DNA from: Nitrosopumilus sp.
GTDB lineage: Archaea; Thermoproteota; Nitrososphaeria; Nitrososphaerales; Nitrosopumilaceae
Assembly: GCF_025699125.1 (NCBI RefSeq)
Contig: NZ_JAILWC010000005.1
Coordinates: 1-64,000 of the forward strand
Length of the DNA: 64,000 nt
Reading direction: 5' to 3'
This document shows, one piece after another, positions 16,728-62,746 of this stretch. How positions within the stretch are numbered: position 1 is the first letter of the stretch; every line of letters begins with the position of its first letter. Below the pieces are notes generated by a model that saw only the letters and a list, made by a program, of their open reading frames with translations, had not been told where the DNA came from and ran no database searches. The position numbers were made by a program, and so were the translations under genes.

Positions 16728-18479
16728 TTAAAATAAACTATTTGCTAGTTTTTTTAATGCGGATATTTCATCATCTTCTTGTCTAATTTTTTTATCAATA
16801 ACGCGTAGCATCGTATCATTCCAGACGTGTTGAGAAAAGAAATTGTGCTTAGTATTGGCTAATTCAATTTCATCATCTACGACAGTGTCCTCAAGAAATT
16901 TAGTAACCACTATATCTGTGATTTTTAAAATTCTAGAATTTAGTTTGAAACTGCGAAAAATAGGCTCCAACTTTCTAATATCTCCTTTATAATCTCCTTT
17001 TGATTCAAGAATTTTCTTATGGATTATTCTAAAATAAACTGCAACAAAAAATAATGTTGCATATCTTTTTGTTTTGTGTCCTCCTTGTTTTCCGTACTTT
17101 AATGATTTTTTTGCAAATTCTTTGACAAGATATGGATACAGCAAAAGTCTGTAATCATCTTTTAAATTGTCATTAAAAATATCATCATATTTGCTTCCTC
17201 TCGGAAGAAATTGAGCTGGTGAACTATAAGCTTCTGTAGGTCTTTGTTCAATTCCTGCAACTAAAGATTGAATTGCATCTTTGGCAACAATGACTTTTTT
17301 ATGATTGTCTGGAAGATAATTATTATAAATTAAATCTCCTTCATATTCGCATTGTTTAGATTTTGATTTGGTATCGAAAGAACCTGCTTGAATTTCATAA
17401 AAATATCCGCAGTTTCTTAACTGTGATTTGATTGATTTATGAAAATCCATCAACGAAACGAGATCTTTTCCTCTAACAGAATTTTGAGAATTTCTATATT
17501 TTGTAATATTGTTTTGTTCTTGTTCATCATTTGCTTTGATTATTGTAACTGTCATGGAACCTTCCATATTTTTTGTTCTCTTTGCATGATCTAGAATTGA
17601 GTTTGATGTTTGAGCACCATTAACAATTTGAGGAGCATGAAGCTCAATCAAATTCTCTCCCAATTCTGTAAAGTCACTAACTACAATAGTGATTCCATTA
17701 TTGTAAAAAAAGAATTTACTTGGATTACTTTGCAGCGTTTCGCGTAATCCTTTGTTAACTGTAGTCTTGAATTGCATCCATTGTCTAATATTTGATTCAA
17801 AAACATAATCCCTACTTTTACTCACAAATTCAGTTAATTCTCTTAATTTTAGAATACCTAATATTGTATTTTCATGTCTGAGCATTCTCTCTAATTTGAT
17901 TGATGATTTTTTTCCTGCTGCTGGTTTTTTTATTCTGTCCCATAATTTTTGAATTATTTTTTCTTCATCTATGATCTCAACTAATTCATCTTCATATTCT
18001 ACTTTCTGATCCGTAACATAGCAACATTTTATCTTTAGATTTTTTTCTTTAATTTTTGTTACAAGCTGGGCTAATTCAGGTCTCATTTTTGTCACATCTT
18101 TTGCAAATAATCGTTTTGCATCTTCTTTGAATTTTGCAATTGCTTCTAATGAATGAGATGTGCCATATTTTGATTGAAATAATCTGATTGTATTGTCTGA
18201 AAAATCTACAGGTAGATAGGCATCTATCCCAAGATCATTTGCTCCATCCACAATTGCATCTGCTGCATCATCTTCTGTGGCTTCAAAAACTCTTGTTAGA
18301 ACCCATTGAAGAAAATTATTTCCTTTTTCTACATCACTTTTTGAATTTTCTGCATATTCATGAATGCTTCCTCGAATATTTTCAGCAAATCCTTCAAGAG
18401 GTAAACTAGAGTTTTTTTGTATTAAAAGGGTATGTGAACCTGGAATGTATTCTAACAATCCATTTCCGTTGTGAGTCAA
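16728..18479 (-). CDS. AIPR-family (abortive infection phage resistance) protein
   Basis: 583 residues. The central AIPR domain carries FYNNGITIV (258-266) and PQIVNGAQTS (283-292), then a QNNITKYRNSQNSVRG segment, all typical of this phage-resistance family. Upstream, DGANDLGIDAY (78-88) and FQSK (101-104) give a D...QxK pattern, as in Mrr-like PD-(D/E)xK nucleases. So the protein is probably a nuclease effector acting on phage or host nucleic acid. The start is TTG 18479; an AT-rich TATA-like stretch is about 20 bp upstream. It stands alone, with no recognisable modification gene nearby. Confidence 0.85.
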   Translation of the reverse strand: MTHNGNGLLEYIPGSHTLLIQKNSSLPLEGFAENIRGSIHEYAENSKSDVEKGNNFLQWVLTRVFEATEDDAADAIVDGANDLGIDAYLPVDFSDNTIRLFQSKYGTSHSLEAIAKFKEDAKRLFAKDVTKMRPELAQLVTKIKEKNLKIKCCYVTDQKVEYEDELVEIIDEEKIIQKLWDRIKKPAAGKKSSIKLERMLRHENTILGILKLRELTEFVSKSRDYVFESNIRQWMQFKTTVNKGLRETLQSNPSKFFFYNNGITIVVSDFTELGENLIELHAPQIVNGAQTSNSILDHAKRTKNMEGSMTVTIIKANDEQEQNNITKYRNSQNSVRGKDLVSLMDFHKSIKSQLRNCGYFYEIQAGSFDTKSKSKQCEYEGDLIYNNYLPDNHKKVIVAKDAIQSLVAGIEQRPTEAYSSPAQFLPRGSKYDDIFNDNLKDDYRLLLYPYLVKEFAKKSLKYGKQGGHKTKRYATLFFVAVYFRIIHKKILESKGDYKGDIRKLEPIFRSFKLNSRILKITDIVVTKFLEDTVVDDEIELANTKHNFFSQHVWNDTMLRVIDKKIRQEDDEISALKKLANSLF

Positions 18480-20181: not shown

Positions 20182-20478
20182 TTGGATAGAATCAAACGTC
20201 TTTCATACGAGGTATTGGTAGATCATAAATCTAAATTTGGTGAAGATTTTGCCAATAATAAAAAAGCACTAGATCAAATTTCTATTATTCGTTCTAAAGG
20301 TTTGAAAAATGAAATTGCAGGTTATATTACAAAATTTATCAAAAAAGAGATCCGAGAAGAAAAATTCAAACAATCTAGAATTGAATCTTCACGTGTAGAA
20401 GAACAAGTAGATGAGGAGATTCAATCTCAAGCACCTGAAACTGTTACAGAAGTAACACCTGAAGAAAAAATAGAATAA
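20182..20478 (+). CDS. rps17e: Small ribosomal subunit protein eS17
   Basis: 98 residues. The core RIKRLSYEVLVDH, then NKKALDQISIIRSKGLKNEIAGYITKFIKKE, aligns with archaeal/eukaryotic eS17 (IIxSKxLRNxIAGYxT). The last about 35 residues are an acidic tail (Glu/Val/Pro/Thr) not in typical eS17. The start is TTG 20182. eS17 binds the small-subunit head. It is followed after 40 bp by the Cgi121 fusion gene on the same strand. Confidence 0.9.
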   Translation: MDRIKRLSYEVLVDHKSKFGEDFANNKKALDQISIIRSKGLKNEIAGYITKFIKKEIREEKFKQSRIESSRVEEQVDEEIQSQAPETVTEVTPEEKIE

Positions 20479-20518: not shown

Positions 20519-21292
20519 ATGATTTCTGTAAAATTAGTTGGAGGCGCTAAAAAGTCTTTTTTGAAAGAAATTTTGGAAATTGACAAATCTGATATCTCTA
20601 TTCAAGAATTATTGGAATTATTATTAGAATTAAAGCCTGTTGACTCACCAAAATTGGATATGGAGAATATTCTAATCGCAATCAATGGTGTAGATTCTTC
20701 AGCTATGAATGGAAAATCTACAATAATAAAAAATAATGATCTTGTGAGTATCATTCCAGTAATTCATGGAGGAACATCAAAAAAAATTACCTTTGAAATA
20801 TTGTCAAAACAAATCCAAATAATTGAAATCAAAGGTAAATCAACCATTGATGTAAAATTCATTGATGATTTAAGAAAAAAATATCCAAAAATTCTATTTC
20901 AGGCTGTATCAAGTAATTTCATAATGAATGTCTATCATTTAAAAAAAATCTTATCCTTATCTCTTGAATCTAAAAAAAATAATATTTTACTTTCAAATAA
21001 GCTTGAAACAGATATCCTGATGCGATTTGCATTGACTAAACAAATATCTGATGCAATAATGACTGCAGGAATAAAACCCAGAACTAATTTTATTCTAATT
21101 GCTATTGGGAATAAAAAATTTTTAAATTTATTGTTTGATGATTTGTCTACACTATCGGTGAATTTATTTTCAAAAAAAAATGACTCTTTTCTCAAAAAAC
21201 ATTTTAAAATTACACAAAAACAAATTGATTCTGCATACTCAAAAAATCCTTTAGAAGATATTTTGGTTGAAAAAGCAGCAGTCTTACTCTGA
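20519..21292 (+). CDS. Ubiquitin-like (MoaD/ThiS-type) domain fused to Cgi121
   Basis: 257 residues in two parts. Residues 1 to about 86 resemble a small beta-grasp protein: ISVKLVGGAKKSF, IQELLELLLEL, ILIAINGVDS, then DLVSIIPVIHGGT, the characteristic end of MoaD/ThiS/SAMP proteins, here with the GG at 84-85 internal. From about 90 to the end is a Cgi121-family domain (LFQAVSS, LTKQISDAIMTAGIKPRTN, FILIAIGNK), the KEOPS subunit that presents tRNA 3' ends for t6A modification. The gene converges on THUMP-sua5, and Sua5 makes the t6A precursor. The fusion and its location suggest tRNA modification. Whether the beta-grasp part conjugates or carries sulfur is unknown. Confidence 0.8.
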   Translation: MISVKLVGGAKKSFLKEILEIDKSDISIQELLELLLELKPVDSPKLDMENILIAINGVDSSAMNGKSTIIKNNDLVSIIPVIHGGTSKKITFEILSKQIQIIEIKGKSTIDVKFIDDLRKKYPKILFQAVSSNFIMNVYHLKKILSLSLESKKNNILLSNKLETDILMRFALTKQISDAIMTAGIKPRTNFILIAIGNKKFLNLLFDDLSTLSVNLFSKKNDSFLKKHFKITQKQIDSAYSKNPLEDILVEKAAVLL

Positions 21293-21805
21293 TATACTGC
21301 GTTTTGTTTTTTCTACACTTAGTATGTCTGATTTTTTCAGAATAGAAATTCCTGTTTTATTTCCCAAAATCTCAATTAAAATAATTTTGTCGGGAAATTC
21401 AAGTGATACCTTATTTTTTATTTTATTTGCAATTTTTGAAATAATTTCTTGACTGGATATGTCTGAATTTCTTTTTTCTATTGAAATTCTATATGTCTCT
21501 CCATCCAAAATCTGTTTTGAATCTTCAGAGATAATTTTTTCAATTTCTTCAATTTTTGTTTCAACAATTCTTTGAATCGGGATTACTCTTAGGCAATATC
21601 TTATACTCCATGGCTCATCAAGTAGCATCTCTTTCATTTTTCCTACAACCTCTACAGGATTTAGATTCGTTTCAGCAGTCAAAATACCTGACATATTTGT
21701 GATTGAGATTTTTGCATCAGAATCTCCGTATTCTTCTAAAATGTCTCTTAATTCATCCTCAGTTTCTGTTTCCAGATGTCTGGCACAAGTAATTATCAAA
21801 TTCAT
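21284..21805 (-). CDS. THUMP-domain protein (Tan1-like)
   Basis: 173 residues. NLIITCARHLETETEDEL at the N-terminus and a C-terminal region with YRISIEKRNSDISSQEII, then GNKTGISIL, are the THUMP RNA-binding pattern. Eukaryotic Tan1 and archaeal homologues bind tRNA and assist ac4C formation. No catalytic domain is attached. It overlaps sua5 by 4 bp (ATGA), so translation is coupled. The 3' end overlaps the convergent Cgi121 fusion by 9 bp. Confidence 0.88.
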   Translation of the reverse strand: MNLIITCARHLETETEDELRDILEEYGDSDAKISITNMSGILTAETNLNPVEVVGKMKEMLLDEPWSIRYCLRVIPIQRIVETKIEEIEKIISEDSKQILDGETYRISIEKRNSDISSQEIISKIANKIKNKVSLEFPDKIILIEILGNKTGISILKKSDILSVEKTKRSISE

Positions 21806-22398
21806 ACTTTTAAAATATCCTCTTTACTTAACGAGCCTTCTCGAATAATTTTGATTTTTTCATTTTCTATTTCAATTATGGTTGATTCTGCTTTACTTGT
21901 AATTGTTCCTCCGTCAACAAAAATATCATAGTTTTCTATACTTCTAAAACATTCATCTGGATTGGTAAATGATGGATGACCTGAAATATTTGCACTAGTT
22001 CCTACTAAAAATTTACATTCCTTCAAAATTTTTAATATACAATCATGTTTGGGAACTCTTATAGCTATTTTATCATTCAAACTTAATGTTTTTTTTAAAT
22101 CTTCATCAATTAATTTTGAAACTATCGTAAGGGGTCCTGGCCAAAACTTTTCTACAATTTTTTCTGTGAATTTATCTAAAAATACAATTTTCTTTGCAGT
22201 CTTAATTGAATATGTTAAAACTGGTAATGATTTGGAGATATCTCTAGATTTAATATCATAAATTTTTTTTACAGCTTCATCATTATATGGATCACATCCT
22301 ATACCATATACTGTATCAGTGGGGTAAACTACAATCCCTCCCCTATTGATAATCTCTAACGCTTTTCCTATTCCCTCTTGATCACATTTTACTCTCAT
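21802..22398 (-). CDS. sua5: L-threonylcarbamoyladenylate synthase (Sua5/YrdC)
   Basis: 198 residues, the YrdC-type catalytic domain only, without the C-terminal Sua5 domain. Motifs: GGIVVYPTDTVYGIGCD (about 15-31), KSRDISKSLPVL, FWPGPLTIV, and GTSANISGHPS. It makes threonylcarbamoyl-AMP from Thr, bicarbonate and ATP for t6A37 in tRNA. Together with the facing Cgi121 fusion gene, this places two steps of t6A synthesis within 2 kb. Operon with the THUMP gene. Confidence 0.94.
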   Translation of the reverse strand: MRVKCDQEGIGKALEIINRGGIVVYPTDTVYGIGCDPYNDEAVKKIYDIKSRDISKSLPVLTYSIKTAKKIVFLDKFTEKIVEKFWPGPLTIVSKLIDEDLKKTLSLNDKIAIRVPKHDCILKILKECKFLVGTSANISGHPSFTNPDECFRSIENYDIFVDGGTITSKAESTIIEIENEKIKIIREGSLSKEDILKV

Positions 22399-37511: not shown

Positions 37512-38015
37512 ATGTCTTCAATAATTTTCAGAGAACCATCAATTAGTGATGCTGATTCTATCTGGAATTTGGTAAAAAATAACAAACCCCTTGATGAGAA
37601 TTCCAAATATCTTTATGTCTTACTTTGCCATCAATTCTCAAAAACATGTGTAGTGGCAGAATCTGGTTCTGATATTATCGGCTTTCTTTCGGGATTCATC
37701 TCTCCTAAAAGTCCAGACACTCTTTTTGTATGGCAGGCAGCTGTATCTAATGCATTTAGAAATAAAGGGATAGCCAAGGAACTTGTGTTAAAGGCACTAT
37801 CTCAAACAGATCCTGATGTTAGATTTGTTGAGGCTACTGTTACTCCCTCTAACAAAGCATCTTTGAAATTTTTGCAAAATATAGCTACTCAACTTGATGG
37901 TGATTTTAAAAAGACACCTATGTTCTCAACCAAAATTCTGGGGGATGATCATGAACCAGAAGATCTTATTAGAATTGGACCTATTCAAAAAAATCTTTTG
38001 GAGGTAACAGCATGA
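37512..38015 (+). CDS. ectA: L-2,4-diaminobutyrate acetyltransferase (EctA)
   Basis: 167 residues, GNAT fold: IIFREPSISDADSIW at the N-terminus, the acetyl-CoA loop NAFRNKGIAKELV (Q/RxxGxG/A-type), then EATVTPSNKASLKF, a conserved EctA segment. It acetylates 2,4-diaminobutyrate at the 4-amino group. Its stop overlaps the ectB ATG by 4 bp. Order and spacing are as expected for an ectoine operon. Confidence 0.95.
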   Translation: MSSIIFREPSISDADSIWNLVKNNKPLDENSKYLYVLLCHQFSKTCVVAESGSDIIGFLSGFISPKSPDTLFVWQAAVSNAFRNKGIAKELVLKALSQTDPDVRFVEATVTPSNKASLKFLQNIATQLDGDFKKTPMFSTKILGDDHEPEDLIRIGPIQKNLLEVTA

Positions 38016-39307
38016 AACAAATTAATGCACTAGAATCACAGGTAAGATCATATTGCCGAAAATATCCTGTGATGTTTGAAAAAGCAAAAGGTCCATTCCT
38101 AATTGATAAAGATGGAAAAAAATATTTTGATTTTCTTTGTGGTGCAGGTTCATTAAATTATGGACATAATAATTCTATTATGAAAAAAGAAATCATTAAT
38201 TATCTAAATGATGATGGAATTACACATAGTTTAGATCTTGCAACAAAATCAAAAGAAGAATTTTTGAATTCATTTTCAAAACATATTTTGGCTCCTAGAA
38301 ATCTAAACTACAAGATACAATTTACCGGACCTACTGGTACCAATGCAGTAGAAGCCGCATTAAAGATTGCAAGAAAGGTAACTGGTAGAACAAAAATTAT
38401 TTCATTTACAAATGGTTTTCATGGTGTTACATTAGGTTCAGTAGCCGCTACAGGAAATAGTTTTCATAGAGGTGGTGCTGGAACTTCATTAAATGATGTT
38501 ATCTTTATGCCATATGATGGTTATATGGGAAAGAAAATAAACACAATTGATTATCTACGACGTGTCTTAGAGGATAACAGTAGTGGAATTGATCTTCCAG
38601 CTGCTGTAATTTTAGAAACCATTCAAGGCGAAGGTGGAATAAACATAGCAAGCTCAAAATGGCTTCAATCATTGCAGGACTTATGTCATGAATTTGGAAT
38701 ATTGATGATTGTAGATGACATTCAGGTAGGATGTGGTCGTACAGGTACTTTTTTCAGTTTTGAGAATGTAGGAATCGAACCTGATTTGGTTGTAATGTCC
38801 AAATCTCTTAGTGGATTTGGATTACCTTTCTCTTTGCTTTTACTAAAACCTGATCTTGACAAGTGGAAACCAGGAGAGCATAATGGAACGTTTAGAGGAA
38901 ATAATTTGGCTTTTCTTACTGCCAAGACCGCGATTGATTATTTTTGGACTACTCAGGAATTGGAAGCAGAAATTACCCTCAAATCAAATATTCTGAAAGA
39001 GAGATTAGAAAAAATGGCTAAAGAAAACATATCGTCAGATATTGAAGTACGTGGAAAAGGAATGGTCTATGGAATTGATTGTATTCTTGAAGATTTGGCC
39101 AGTGCCATTCAACACAGATGCTTTGAAAATGGGTTAATTCTTGAAACATGTGGATCCGATGATCATGTAGTAAAACTTCTTCCTGCTTTGACAATTTCTG
39201 ACGATGAATTAAGAGAGGGTTTGGATATACTGGAGAAAAGTATCAAGCAAGTAATGAACCAATCTGACTTTCAAAAAAAACTTGAGGCTGAAATTGTTGA
39301 GAAATGA
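38012..39307 (+). CDS. ectB: Diaminobutyrate--2-oxoglutarate aminotransferase (EctB)
   Basis: 431 residues, class III aminotransferase. N-terminal ESQVRSYCRKYPVMFEKA is diagnostic for EctB. GPTGTNAVEAALKIARKVTGR and TNGFHGVTLGS bind PLP phosphate. DDIQVGCGRTG and SKSLSGFGLPFSLLLLKP contain the PLP-Lys (SKSLSG with K). It converts aspartate semialdehyde to diaminobutyrate. Overlaps ectC by 4 bp. Confidence 0.96.
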   Translation: MKQINALESQVRSYCRKYPVMFEKAKGPFLIDKDGKKYFDFLCGAGSLNYGHNNSIMKKEIINYLNDDGITHSLDLATKSKEEFLNSFSKHILAPRNLNYKIQFTGPTGTNAVEAALKIARKVTGRTKIISFTNGFHGVTLGSVAATGNSFHRGGAGTSLNDVIFMPYDGYMGKKINTIDYLRRVLEDNSSGIDLPAAVILETIQGEGGINIASSKWLQSLQDLCHEFGILMIVDDIQVGCGRTGTFFSFENVGIEPDLVVMSKSLSGFGLPFSLLLLKPDLDKWKPGEHNGTFRGNNLAFLTAKTAIDYFWTTQELEAEITLKSNILKERLEKMAKENISSDIEVRGKGMVYGIDCILEDLASAIQHRCFENGLILETCGSDDHVVKLLPALTISDDELREGLDILEKSIKQVMNQSDFQKKLEAEIVEK

Positions 39308-39708
39308 TAGTACGAAATACTGAATTACTTCGTGGTACAAACCGACAAGTTAATTCAAAAAATTGGTCTAGCACAAGACTTCTTTTAAAAGATGATGACA
39401 TGGGTTTCTCGTTTCATGAAACAATCCTTTATCCTAACACTGAAACTAAAATTTGGTACAAAAATCATCTTGAAGCCGTATATTGTATAGAAGGAGTTGG
39501 TGAGGTAGAAGAAGCTGATGGATTAAAACACAGTATTCGTCCTGGAATAATCTATGCGTTGGATAAACATGATAAACATATTCTTAGAGCATTTTCAAAA
39601 ATGAGAATGATATGTGTATTTAATCCTGCACTTGTCGGACCTGAAACACATGATCCAGAAGGAGTATATCCATTATTAACAACAGGAGAAAAAAATGTCT
39701 CAAAGTAA
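39304..39708 (+). CDS. ectC: L-ectoine synthase (EctC)
   Basis: 134 residues, single cupin. MIVRNTELLRGTNRQVN matches the EctC N-terminus; cupin motifs KNHLEAVYCIEGVGEVE and GIIYALDKHDKHILRA are visible. It cyclises gamma-acetyl-diaminobutyrate to ectoine. Final residues overlap the start of ectD by 14 bp. Confidence 0.95.
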   Translation: MIVRNTELLRGTNRQVNSKNWSSTRLLLKDDDMGFSFHETILYPNTETKIWYKNHLEAVYCIEGVGEVEEADGLKHSIRPGIIYALDKHDKHILRAFSKMRMICVFNPALVGPETHDPEGVYPLLTTGEKNVSK

Positions 39709-40606
39709 ATCTCAATTTGATTTTTATCCAACAAGAATGAACTCTGAATCAAAAATTATTCCACGAACTGATCCTGTTGTGTATTCTGATTCATATGATG
39801 ATCTTTCTAAAGAACAAGTAGAATTTTTTGAGAACAATGGATATTTGATATTTGATGATTTGTTTTCTTCTGATGAGGTCAACAAACTTTTCGAAGAATT
39901 AAAATCTCTTTCTCGTGATGAAACAAAAAAGAAATTACCTCAATTCATCTTAGAAGAAACTCATAGAGACGTGCGTTCTATTTTTGAAATTCATAAAATC
40001 AGTAAAATTTATGGTAATCTTTGTAAAGACAAGAGAGTTTTAAAAAAAGTACAACAACTCCTTGGAAGCAAAGTATACATTCACCAATCACGAGTAAATC
40101 TAAAACCCGGATTTGATGGTAAAGAATTCTATTGGCATTCGGATTTTGAGACTTGGCATTCTGAGGATGGGATGCCTAACATGCATGCAGTATCATGTTC
40201 AATTAGTCTTACAAAAAACTATGAGTTTAATGGACCCTTGATGGTTATTCCTGGTTCTCACAAAGAATTTGTTTCATGCAGTGGGAAAACCCCTGATGAA
40301 CACTACAAACAATCTCTAAAAAGACAAGAGATAGGCACACCTGATAAAGAAATCTTGGAACAAATGGTTGAAAAAAGTAAAATTGTATCGGCAAAGGGCA
40401 ATGCAGGGTCTGTCATCATTTTTGATTGTAATATAATGCATGGTTCTAATGGAAACATCACTCCTTATCCTAGAAGTAATGCCTTCTTTGTTTACAACAG
40501 CATCCACAACAAACTAGTTGAACCATTTTGTGGATTGAATCCTAGACCTGATTATATTGCAGACAGAGAATTCTCGCCTCTTGAATCTGTAGAAAGTTTT
40601 CTTTGA
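39695..40606 (+). CDS. ectD: Ectoine hydroxylase (EctD)
   Basis: 303 residues, non-haem Fe(II)/2-oxoglutarate dioxygenase of the PhyH family. The iron site is in FYWHSDFETWHSEDGMP (His and Asp), with the distal His in FDCNIMHGS. FSSDEVNKLFEEL and SRVNLKPGFDGKEF are family regions. It makes 5-hydroxyectoine using O2. Together with EctABC, the organism can make both osmolytes. The N-terminus up to about residue 35 is polar. Gene end is followed by the facing mscS gene. Confidence 0.96.
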   Translation: MSQSKSQFDFYPTRMNSESKIIPRTDPVVYSDSYDDLSKEQVEFFENNGYLIFDDLFSSDEVNKLFEELKSLSRDETKKKLPQFILEETHRDVRSIFEIHKISKIYGNLCKDKRVLKKVQQLLGSKVYIHQSRVNLKPGFDGKEFYWHSDFETWHSEDGMPNMHAVSCSISLTKNYEFNGPLMVIPGSHKEFVSCSGKTPDEHYKQSLKRQEIGTPDKEILEQMVEKSKIVSAKGNAGSVIIFDCNIMHGSNGNITPYPRSNAFFVYNSIHNKLVEPFCGLNPRPDYIADREFSPLESVESFL

Positions 40607-60652: not shown

Positions 60653-62746
60653 TCAAGCCTTGGCTTTTTGAAATTTACTTGGGTCTGGCTTGGTTGCAAT
60701 ATTTTGATACTGTCTTATTCTTTCAGCAATTAGCCTGTATAATGATCTGAATTGATCCTTTGTTTTATCTGTGAGAAAATTGGTGTCCTCAAGAGCAATT
60801 TTCTCACAAATATATCTGGTAATTTCTTCATTGTCAAATTTTCCCCAGTCATCTTCTCTATGATCTTGCCATATTTTTTTCAATTTTTCTAACACTCCTT
60901 TTCCCTCTTTGGATACAACTTCTTCAGGTGTGAGATTTGAAAATCCTTCACGTCTTAACTTTATTTCATAAGTCTGATTTACTGGATGTAGATAATCCTC
61001 AAGTGCGATATAGTCTTCGATGGATTCTAGTTTCTTTCCTTCCTTTTCAAAGAATATGGTTTGAATCGATGAAAACTCATTTGAAACTAACTGAGCAGAA
61101 ATCTGTTTTGATTCTTCAGAATTATCTAACAATACAAATGTTCTATAACCATGATTTCGATAAAAAATCGCCAATGGTAATACTGAATTTTTGTTATATG
61201 CTGCAACAACATTCAGAGGATTCATTGATATGTTTGGATCCTGCAAAAATTTATCAAATGCATTAAGATACATTGCATCCGACATTGTCTCTACAATAAT
61301 TATTGGTCTTGAATTTGTACCAATTTCTCTGTCTACTATAGATTCTACCTGACCTCTTGATAGCCCGTACAAAATCGGTGTTAATGTTTTATCATCTGCA
61401 TTCCAATAATCATAAAAGATTCTACTAAGGTGTTTTCTTCTGTCTAATTCTACAACAAGCAAGTTTCCTGGAGTATAATCAAATATCATAAATGGTGAAT
61501 GTGTTGCATACAGAACTTGATTTGAACCTGCTAAATTTTTCAGCAAATCTGAGATTCCCATTTGTTGTGTAGGGTGAAGATTTCTTGCAGGTTCATCTAA
61601 AAGTAGTAATGCTTCTTTTAGTTCTGCTCTTTGTGTTTCAGCAGCAAAGTTTACAATAAAAGAAAATGTCCATTTGAATCCCTCTGCTCTTCTATTTAGC
61701 AATCCTGTGTTTGTTATGGTTCCATCTTTGTGAACATCTGAAATAACCACACTCATAATATTTCCTGGATTGTATCTCAAATCTACATGGATGGGATCTC
61801 CTTTCCATGCTGGATTCAGTTTGCTGGTTAATCTGTTGCTTGCAGCATTTAGAAGTTTGATGCATTTTGAAGGACTCTCTTTTACTTCATCTAATTCTTT
61901 CATATCTAGTTCTGCAAGATAAAATAGATTTCTTACTGTCTCTGCCTTGTCAAACTCTTCAATGTATTCGATAGAGTCTGCTCTTTCCCCTCTTTCTTCT
62001 CTTAGAAATTCATTAAGATTGATGTTGCCGTAGATTTTTTTGTAATCCGAAAAATAGACAAATCTTGGATGTAGATCAGACGCAATAAAATTCTCTAGTG
62101 CTGTTTTTATGCTTTCACCGCTTAGTAAATTTGAAAATTGGTTTTCAGGATTCTCATAGATTTTTTCCCATTCTTCGATAACCTTTGGCTCCTGAATTGC
62201 AATAACGTGGAATTGATTACTAAATTCTGCCATGCCGCTATCAAAAACTTCTTGATTCTTTGGAACCTGTCCTTCAAAGAATTTTGTATTAATTTGTATT
62301 CTGAGATGGTTTGGAATAGTATCCAAAAATCCTAGAATCTGCCTTGTGAAATTTTCCCATGAATTAATTCCTTGACTCTCATCTTCACTAAGTTCTATAT
62401 CTTCAAATTCGTATTGAACTTTTGGCCTTCTATTTGTTCTAATTAATTTAATTTTTTTAATTTCTGGTAAACTTGGAAATTTTTCTTTTATCAATTCTCT
62501 TTCATGTTGATTAAGATCAAACTCTCCTTCTGCCAATCTAATCTCTTCTTTGAGCTCCTCATTCATTTCATCACAAAGATCTAATTCTGAAACCTGCTCA
62601 TCTCTATTCAACAAAGTCAATGCCTGAAGTATTGTTGTTTTTCCACTTTCATTTCTTCCAACAAAGGCAGCTAAATCTCCCACTGTTATCTCTCCAGAGT
62701 CATGAATACATCGATATGCTCTTACTCTGAACTTTCTAAGTCGCAT
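60653..62746 (-). CDS. OLD-family ATP-dependent nuclease
   Basis: 697 residues. N-terminal ABC-type ATPase: Walker A GRNESGKTT (30-38), a coiled-coil region, Walker B LLLLDEPARNLHP (380-392) and H-loop ATHSPF (414-419). A C-terminal TOPRIM region starts at IIIVETMSD (482-490) with D541 in FVLLDNSEES. Class 1 OLD nucleases and Gabija GajA have this layout; they defend against phage. The canonical second Asp of the DxD motif is Ser here. No UvrD-like GajB gene is adjacent, so this is a solitary OLD. Confidence 0.88.
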   Translation of the reverse strand: MRLRKFRVRAYRCIHDSGEITVGDLAAFVGRNESGKTTILQALTLLNRDEQVSELDLCDEMNEELKEEIRLAEGEFDLNQHERELIKEKFPSLPEIKKIKLIRTNRRPKVQYEFEDIELSEDESQGINSWENFTRQILGFLDTIPNHLRIQINTKFFEGQVPKNQEVFDSGMAEFSNQFHVIAIQEPKVIEEWEKIYENPENQFSNLLSGESIKTALENFIASDLHPRFVYFSDYKKIYGNINLNEFLREERGERADSIEYIEEFDKAETVRNLFYLAELDMKELDEVKESPSKCIKLLNAASNRLTSKLNPAWKGDPIHVDLRYNPGNIMSVVISDVHKDGTITNTGLLNRRAEGFKWTFSFIVNFAAETQRAELKEALLLLDEPARNLHPTQQMGISDLLKNLAGSNQVLYATHSPFMIFDYTPGNLLVVELDRRKHLSRIFYDYWNADDKTLTPILYGLSRGQVESIVDREIGTNSRPIIIVETMSDAMYLNAFDKFLQDPNISMNPLNVVAAYNKNSVLPLAIFYRNHGYRTFVLLDNSEESKQISAQLVSNEFSSIQTIFFEKEGKKLESIEDYIALEDYLHPVNQTYEIKLRREGFSNLTPEEVVSKEGKGVLEKLKKIWQDHREDDWGKFDNEEITRYICEKIALEDTNFLTDKTKDQFRSLYRLIAERIRQYQNIATKPDPSKFQKAKA

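Follow-up and report, generated by a model that had tools for sequence, protein, structure and literature searches.

We found that a gene in the window (the whole 64,000-nucleotide stretch of Nitrosopumilus DNA that was analysed) encodes, in one open frame, an Urm1/SAMP-like ubiquitin-like (Ubl) domain followed by the KEOPS subunit Cgi121, the two being joined at an internal HGG motif. Judging from sequence comparison and by analogy with known systems, this protein is probably (at roughly 0.65) a pro-Urm1–Cgi121 precursor that is cut after Gly85 by a type A JAMM protease.

The bare architecture was already known. The preliminary description of this DNA implied that it was unreported, but the Ubl–Cgi121 fusion was published in 2010 and described as conserved throughout the Thaumarchaea sequenced by that time (Makarova & Koonin, PMC2948915). 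The 2010 gene is the same one, with the same architecture and, in N. maritimus, an S17 neighbour with which the fusion is cotranscribed. The same study pointed out a genomic link between the Ubl and tRNA-modification genes, likewise noted a Ubl-E1 fusion in Thaumarchaeota, and proposed either SAMPylation control of KEOPS or a coordinated function of the two parts (PMC2948915). Our literature search, with most subscription journals outside its scope, found no later paper or experimental follow-up on the Ubl–Cgi121 fusion. What is new here is a recurrent history of fused and split states, an invariant, disordered HGG and a testable precursor model; in the 2010 account the fusion was conserved in every thaumarchaeon available at that time, whereas here its state varies across the class, the GG is a conserved junction and a cut precursor is proposed.

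The fusion gene and its neighbours

The fusion gene starts with ATG and encodes 257 amino acids plus a stop, with zero internal stops. Residues 17-85 matched the Pfam family ThiS (PF02597, E 1e-7 for the domain alone) and residues 118-254 matched CGI-121 (PF08617, E 3e-6), both above cut-off. The NCBIfam model for KEOPS complex subunit Cgi121 (NF011465) scored 169.5 bits on the fusion protein against a cut-off of 40, and the fusion protein was the sole match to PF08617 in the window genome. An AlphaFold2 model built from 52 family sequences (mean pLDDT 92) was made up of a beta-grasp at residues 1-82 and a Cgi121 domain at residues 89-257. The pLDDT fell below 50 only at residues 83-85, which are the HGG motif. 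The relative placement of the two domains is unreliable because the pTM was 0.68. The preliminary description, which had placed a Ubl beta-grasp and Cgi121 in one chain and had proposed structure prediction as a check, is thus borne out by the intact frame, the Pfam matches and the predicted folds. It had also named a frameshift that would make the two parts separate genes. Such a frameshift, or an annotation artefact, is ruled out by the single frame and by many full-length orthologues, found at 98% down to about 40% identity.

Foldseek matched the fusion model to Cgi121 of the Bud32-Cgi121 complex (4ww7, E 3e-9), and yeast, human, plant and archaeal KEOPS Cgi121 were among the matches of the Cgi121 part. 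The Ubl part matched Urm1 (2k9x, E 1e-4) as well as TA0895 and SAMP1, and in profile searches its matches included Urm1 of Sulfolobus, trypanosome and yeast. The Urm1 proteins of Sulfolobus (4wwm) and trypanosome (2k9x), which are among the best matches, share the beta-grasp fold with the Ubl studied here and have an HGG-type tail, to which its internal HGG would correspond. Sulfolobus and eukaryotic Urm1 are free proteins, whereas here a second domain follows the Ubl in the same chain. The Ubl scored 26 bits with the curated Urm1 model NF053661 (cut-off 70) and 21.1 with the Pfam Urm1 model (cut-off 21.8), while the broader ThiS model was passed. We therefore label it Urm1/SAMP-like and not Urm1. 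A cofactor role of the MoaD or ThiS kind was rejected on the HGG tail and on the nearest solved structures, which are of Urm1/SAMP type; of the earlier MoaD/ThiS label the beta-grasp Ubl fold stands and the type does not.

Table 1. Features of the fusion gene and of its neighbours, with positions in the window; cut site and cut product are predicted
Feature	Positions	Strand	Evidence
Ribosomal protein S17e, upstream, co-directional	20182..20478	+	PF00833, E 9e-17
Pro-Urm1–Cgi121 fusion gene (putative precursor)	20519..21292	+	Single open frame, Pfam/NCBIfam matches, AlphaFold2 model
Urm1/SAMP-like beta-grasp domain, residues 1-85	20519..20773	+	PF02597 at residues 17-85; Urm1/SAMP structures by profile and fold
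HGG codons, residues 83-85; putative cut directly 3'	20765..20773	+	Invariance, codon usage, pLDDT <50, chain end in split genomes
Short linker and Cgi121 domain, residues 86-257	20774..21289	+	PF08617, NF011465, Foldseek to Cgi121/TPRKB structures
THUMP-domain protein, convergent	21284..21805	-	PF02926, E 8e-9; position conserved
Sua5/TsaC, L-threonylcarbamoyladenylate synthase (t6A pathway), convergent	21802..22398	-	PF01300, E 3e-54; TIGR00057, 175 bits, above cut-off
Tryptic peptide across the HGG junction of the uncut chain, this sequence: NNDLVSIIPVIHGGTSK			
C-terminal letters of the junction peptide if cut after HGG: NNDLVSIIPVIHGG			

The fusion gene faces a THUMP gene and a Sua5 gene, as had been described, and its end overlaps that of the THUMP gene by 9 bases. 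The S17e gene upstream, which the preliminary description did not mention, precedes the Ubl in most loci and is its conserved partner. Further away in the window we observed two possible defence genes, one for an AIPR-family protein (16728-18479, minus strand; PF10592, E 1e-59; the family takes its name from abortive infection) and one for a large OLD/AbiEii-like ATPase of the AAA_15/AAA_21 kind (60653-62746, minus strand). The window also contains an apparent ectoine/hydroxyectoine cluster (37512-40606, plus strand) with an acetyltransferase, a class III aminotransferase, an ectoine synthase and a PhyH-type dioxygenase.

Fused and split states across the class

We sampled 300 genomes of the class, 272 of which gave a match to the fusion protein, and read the loci with profiles for S17e, Ubl, Cgi121, THUMP and Sua5. 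The gene string S17e–Ubl–Cgi121 is conserved across the class, and the fusion is a variable state of that string. In the window's family (f1) the two parts are fused in all sampled members except one, and the fusion is kept across some 20 genera. Outside f1 fused genes were found in six of nine members of one f3 genus, in two genomes of f20 and in single genomes of f22 (G047) and f13 (G271). Most sister families carry the Ubl and Cgi121 as two genes side by side. The search for the fusion across thaumarchaea that had been suggested thus found it throughout the family bar one genome, but the class has mostly separate genes, and the wider sample does not bear out the claim that the fusion is universal in Thaumarchaea.

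In genomes with split genes the Ubl ends either exactly at HGG followed by the stop or 1-9 residues beyond, so the internal GG of the fusion is a true or near chain end elsewhere. The split genes abut each other or overlap, with the Cgi121 start lying inside the HGG codons at one locus (L044). On a tree of 106 genomes, the contrast of exact and past-HGG ends needs 12 changes, and the three states need 16.

Several individual loci deserve mention. The one f1 exception, a nearly complete genome (G028, locus L110), has a TGA after HGGA with Cgi121 continuing in frame, which is either a secondary fission or a sequence error. An f15 genome (G282, L063 561-1400) has the same Ubl joined to a phosphoribosyltransferase domain at HGG, and Cgi121 is the next gene. 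The fused Ubl–Cgi121 of G271 (L141 880-1614) has HCS replacing HGG, and no JAMM was found in this 82%-complete draft; this combination fits the precursor model, though it comes from one draft and a sequence error is possible. In the f3 genus g23 (L123, L129, L130, L056, L065) the string is broken, with the Ubl staying beside S17e and Cgi121 lying elsewhere beside THUMP and Sua5. A Nitrosopumilus-type fusion, 74% identical, was found under the title 'Proteobacteria bacterium' (L304, JADFJJ010000046.1), probably a mislabelled bin. The Ubl of f17, which ends in VVGGG and has no adjacent Cgi121, was set aside as not orthologous.

The HGG junction and the candidate protease

HGG was invariant in the 52 aligned family proteins and in all fused f1 loci, neither set having been selected by the motif. 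Codon usage was counted in 106 distinct fused loci, which were found by the motif itself: both HGG glycines use GGA, GGT, GGC and GGG, and the residue that follows is any of ten different letters. A comparison of 102 proteins gave the same picture of HGG. Many other Ubl positions are also invariant in the 52-row alignment of the fused family. A structural reason for the invariance of HGG is unlikely because it is the sole segment of the model with pLDDT below 50. Sequence comparison and model together thus argue that selection at HGG acts on the protein, at a place where no structure is predicted.

Only two Ubls were found with PF02597 in the window genome, both of them fused at an internal GG, though a diverged free Ubl may escape this search. 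At that sensitivity, cutting would be the only source of free Urm1. One strong E1 match, of UbaA/MoeB type (L034 1192-2523, contig C3), was obtained in the genome, which also has a TtuA/NcsA-type thiolase and Kae1 (PF00814, E 2e-70), with a Bud32-like kinase one gene further on. The E1, encoded directly 3' of a threonine-synthase-like gene, bears an N-terminal Ubl of its own, joined through an internal AGGS, and may itself be another such precursor.

JAMM proteins of the PF14464 family were present in 80 of 81 f1 genomes, mostly as two per genome. In a tree of the class's PF14464 JAMMs they formed two clades, type A and type B. The nearest PDB relative of the type A protein of the window genome (L161 1438-1872) is PfJAMM1 (E 7e-16), and its closest NCBIfam model is desampylase, under cut-off (56 of 130 bits). 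The type B JAMM-like protein of the genome (HSHPSG..., L162 1462-1860, contig C1) belongs to a group that nearly all genomes of the class have, the f7 genomes examined being without it. Types were assigned from the tree, with type B taken at a score >50 (profile with a single B sequence) and bit scores used for about 10 f3 genomes.

We then compared Ubl tails with JAMM content in 83 genomes outside f1. A type A JAMM was found in 25 of the 27 genomes whose Ubl continues past HGG; the other two are drafts (91% and 84% complete) with congeners that have type A. Among the 56 genomes with an exact HGG end, type A is present in 22 and absent from 34 (Fisher p 3e-6 across the 83 genomes). Shared ancestry weakens this association, which was not significant under phylogeny control (independent-pairs test) and reached p 0.08 when counted per family and JAMM state. 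In f4, f7, f9 and f10 type A is absent and all Ubls end exactly. In f18 the only genome with type A carries a tail of 8 residues and the three that lack it end exactly; in f16 three of four genomes are without type A and end exactly, as does the fourth, which has a divergent type A. Sequence comparison thus makes the link between type A JAMM and tails suggestive. The 22 genomes that have type A and end exactly indicate that this protease also acts on other substrates, and its presence is not diagnostic.

A proposed cut precursor and its alternatives

In the model that we favour, pro-Urm1–Cgi121 would be translated as a single chain downstream of S17e, and a JAMM metalloprotease of desampylase type, like PfJAMM1 and HvJAMM1, would cut it after Gly85. 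This would release an Urm1-like protein whose C-terminal HGG is free and which the UbaA-type E1 of the genome could adenylate. The activated protein may then serve in sulfur transfer to a tRNA thiolase of NcsA/TtuA type, in protein modification or in both. The freed Cgi121 would join Bud32 and Kae1 in KEOPS for t6A, and the fusion would give equal amounts of both products for two routes of anticodon-loop modification. That the chain is cut, which protease cuts it, what its products then do and what is gained by supplying them equally are all inferred from sequence and analogy.

The analogy is with several known systems. HvJAMM1 cuts SAMP1–MoaE exactly after the GG in vivo, restoring function, and cutting of SAMP1–MoaE without the GG was undetected (PMC4443979). 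DRJAMM cuts a natural MoaD–MoaE fusion (PMC8832034), and CsJAMM cuts SAMP precursors (PMC6043591). Like the MoaD–MoaE and SAMP1–MoaE chains, the protein studied here has an N-terminal Ubl, an internal GG and a C-terminal partner, and its genome encodes a PF14464-family JAMM. In those chains the partner is molybdopterin synthase and the cut is known by experiment, whereas here the partner is a KEOPS subunit, the tail is an Urm1-like HGG and the cut is predicted. Caldiarchaeum subterraneum, with CsUb-pre/CsRpn11 and CsSAMP/CsJAMM, offers archaeal Ubls with residues past the GG that are trimmed by the JAMM family (PMC6043591), although those precursors have short tails in place of a second folded domain, and the CsJAMM substrates (Csub_C0702; f20) are not established as counterparts of the Ubl studied here.

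Eukaryotic ubiquitin–ribosomal protein fusions likewise have the Ubl first and a GG junction, and their parts have separate functions after cutting. The logic is the one proposed here, with a different partner and different proteases. The eukaryotic fusions join a ribosomal protein to the Ubl, whereas here the ribosomal gene lies upstream, unfused.

The chain might instead stay uncut, with the Urm1 domain as a docking or regulatory module of KEOPS that, for example, brings the thiolase or E1 near and keeps its GG for non-covalent contacts. The retention of the fusion across the genera of f1, the good folding of both domains in one chain and the genomic link of the Ubl to tRNA-modification genes are in keeping with this. 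We nevertheless consider it unlikely. Most of the class makes separate proteins, with 12 changes of state on the tree, which indicates that function does not depend on a fixed tether; a disordered HGG with variable residues after it makes little sense if no free end is made; and the window genome would be left without free Urm1 at the sensitivity of PF02597. The preliminary description had suggested that the fusion may link Ubl chemistry or protein docking to KEOPS. A lasting tether of this kind is less likely than separation after synthesis, because the sister families mostly have separate genes whose Ubl stops at or just after HGG and because HGG is invariant in spite of being the sole disordered segment of the model. 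Its remark that the internal GG gives a free glycine only if the chain is cut was apt, and the comparative evidence favours the cut.

Less probable still is that the uncut chain is an inactive store, from which a JAMM cut under some condition activates KEOPS, Urm1 or both. SAMP1–MoaE offers a parallel, as its covalent form has no activity before the cut by HvJAMM1 (PMC4443979), and all the parts needed are present in the genome, but related genomes make both proteins separately, which leaves no switch possible. t6A is considered essential in archaea, which also argues against an off state. It is very improbable that overlapping genes were simply joined by chance, leaving Cgi121 with an N-terminal extension for which neither cutting nor tethering matters. 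Abutting or overlapping split genes, as at L044, would make such a fusion mutationally easy, and a single TGA splits the gene in G028. However, the Ubl and HGG are under strong constraint, with HGG invariant over saturated synonymous codons and many Ubl positions also invariant.

A wider reading, which is tentative and on which we would not quite bet, builds on the cut precursor. This family, whose marine archaea are abundant, may make its Urm1-like protein only within the precursor of a KEOPS subunit, so that one desampylase cut would yield a sulfur carrier or protein modifier and a t6A-complex subunit in 1:1 amounts, linking tRNA U34 thiolation with A37 t6A. Fusion of the same Ubl to Cgi121 would have arisen independently in other lineages, and in one of them the partner is a phosphoribosyltransferase; the junction would in each case be the GG.

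Although published in 2010, the fusion was left without an explanation, and within the literature searched the readings offered at that time were apparently never tested. If the precursor is indeed cut, archaea would have, in the Urm1 branch, an equivalent of the ubiquitin–ribosomal protein fusions. The cut would also explain how free Urm1 is supplied in a genome where only fused Ubls were found, and a single gene would connect two modifications of the anticodon loop.
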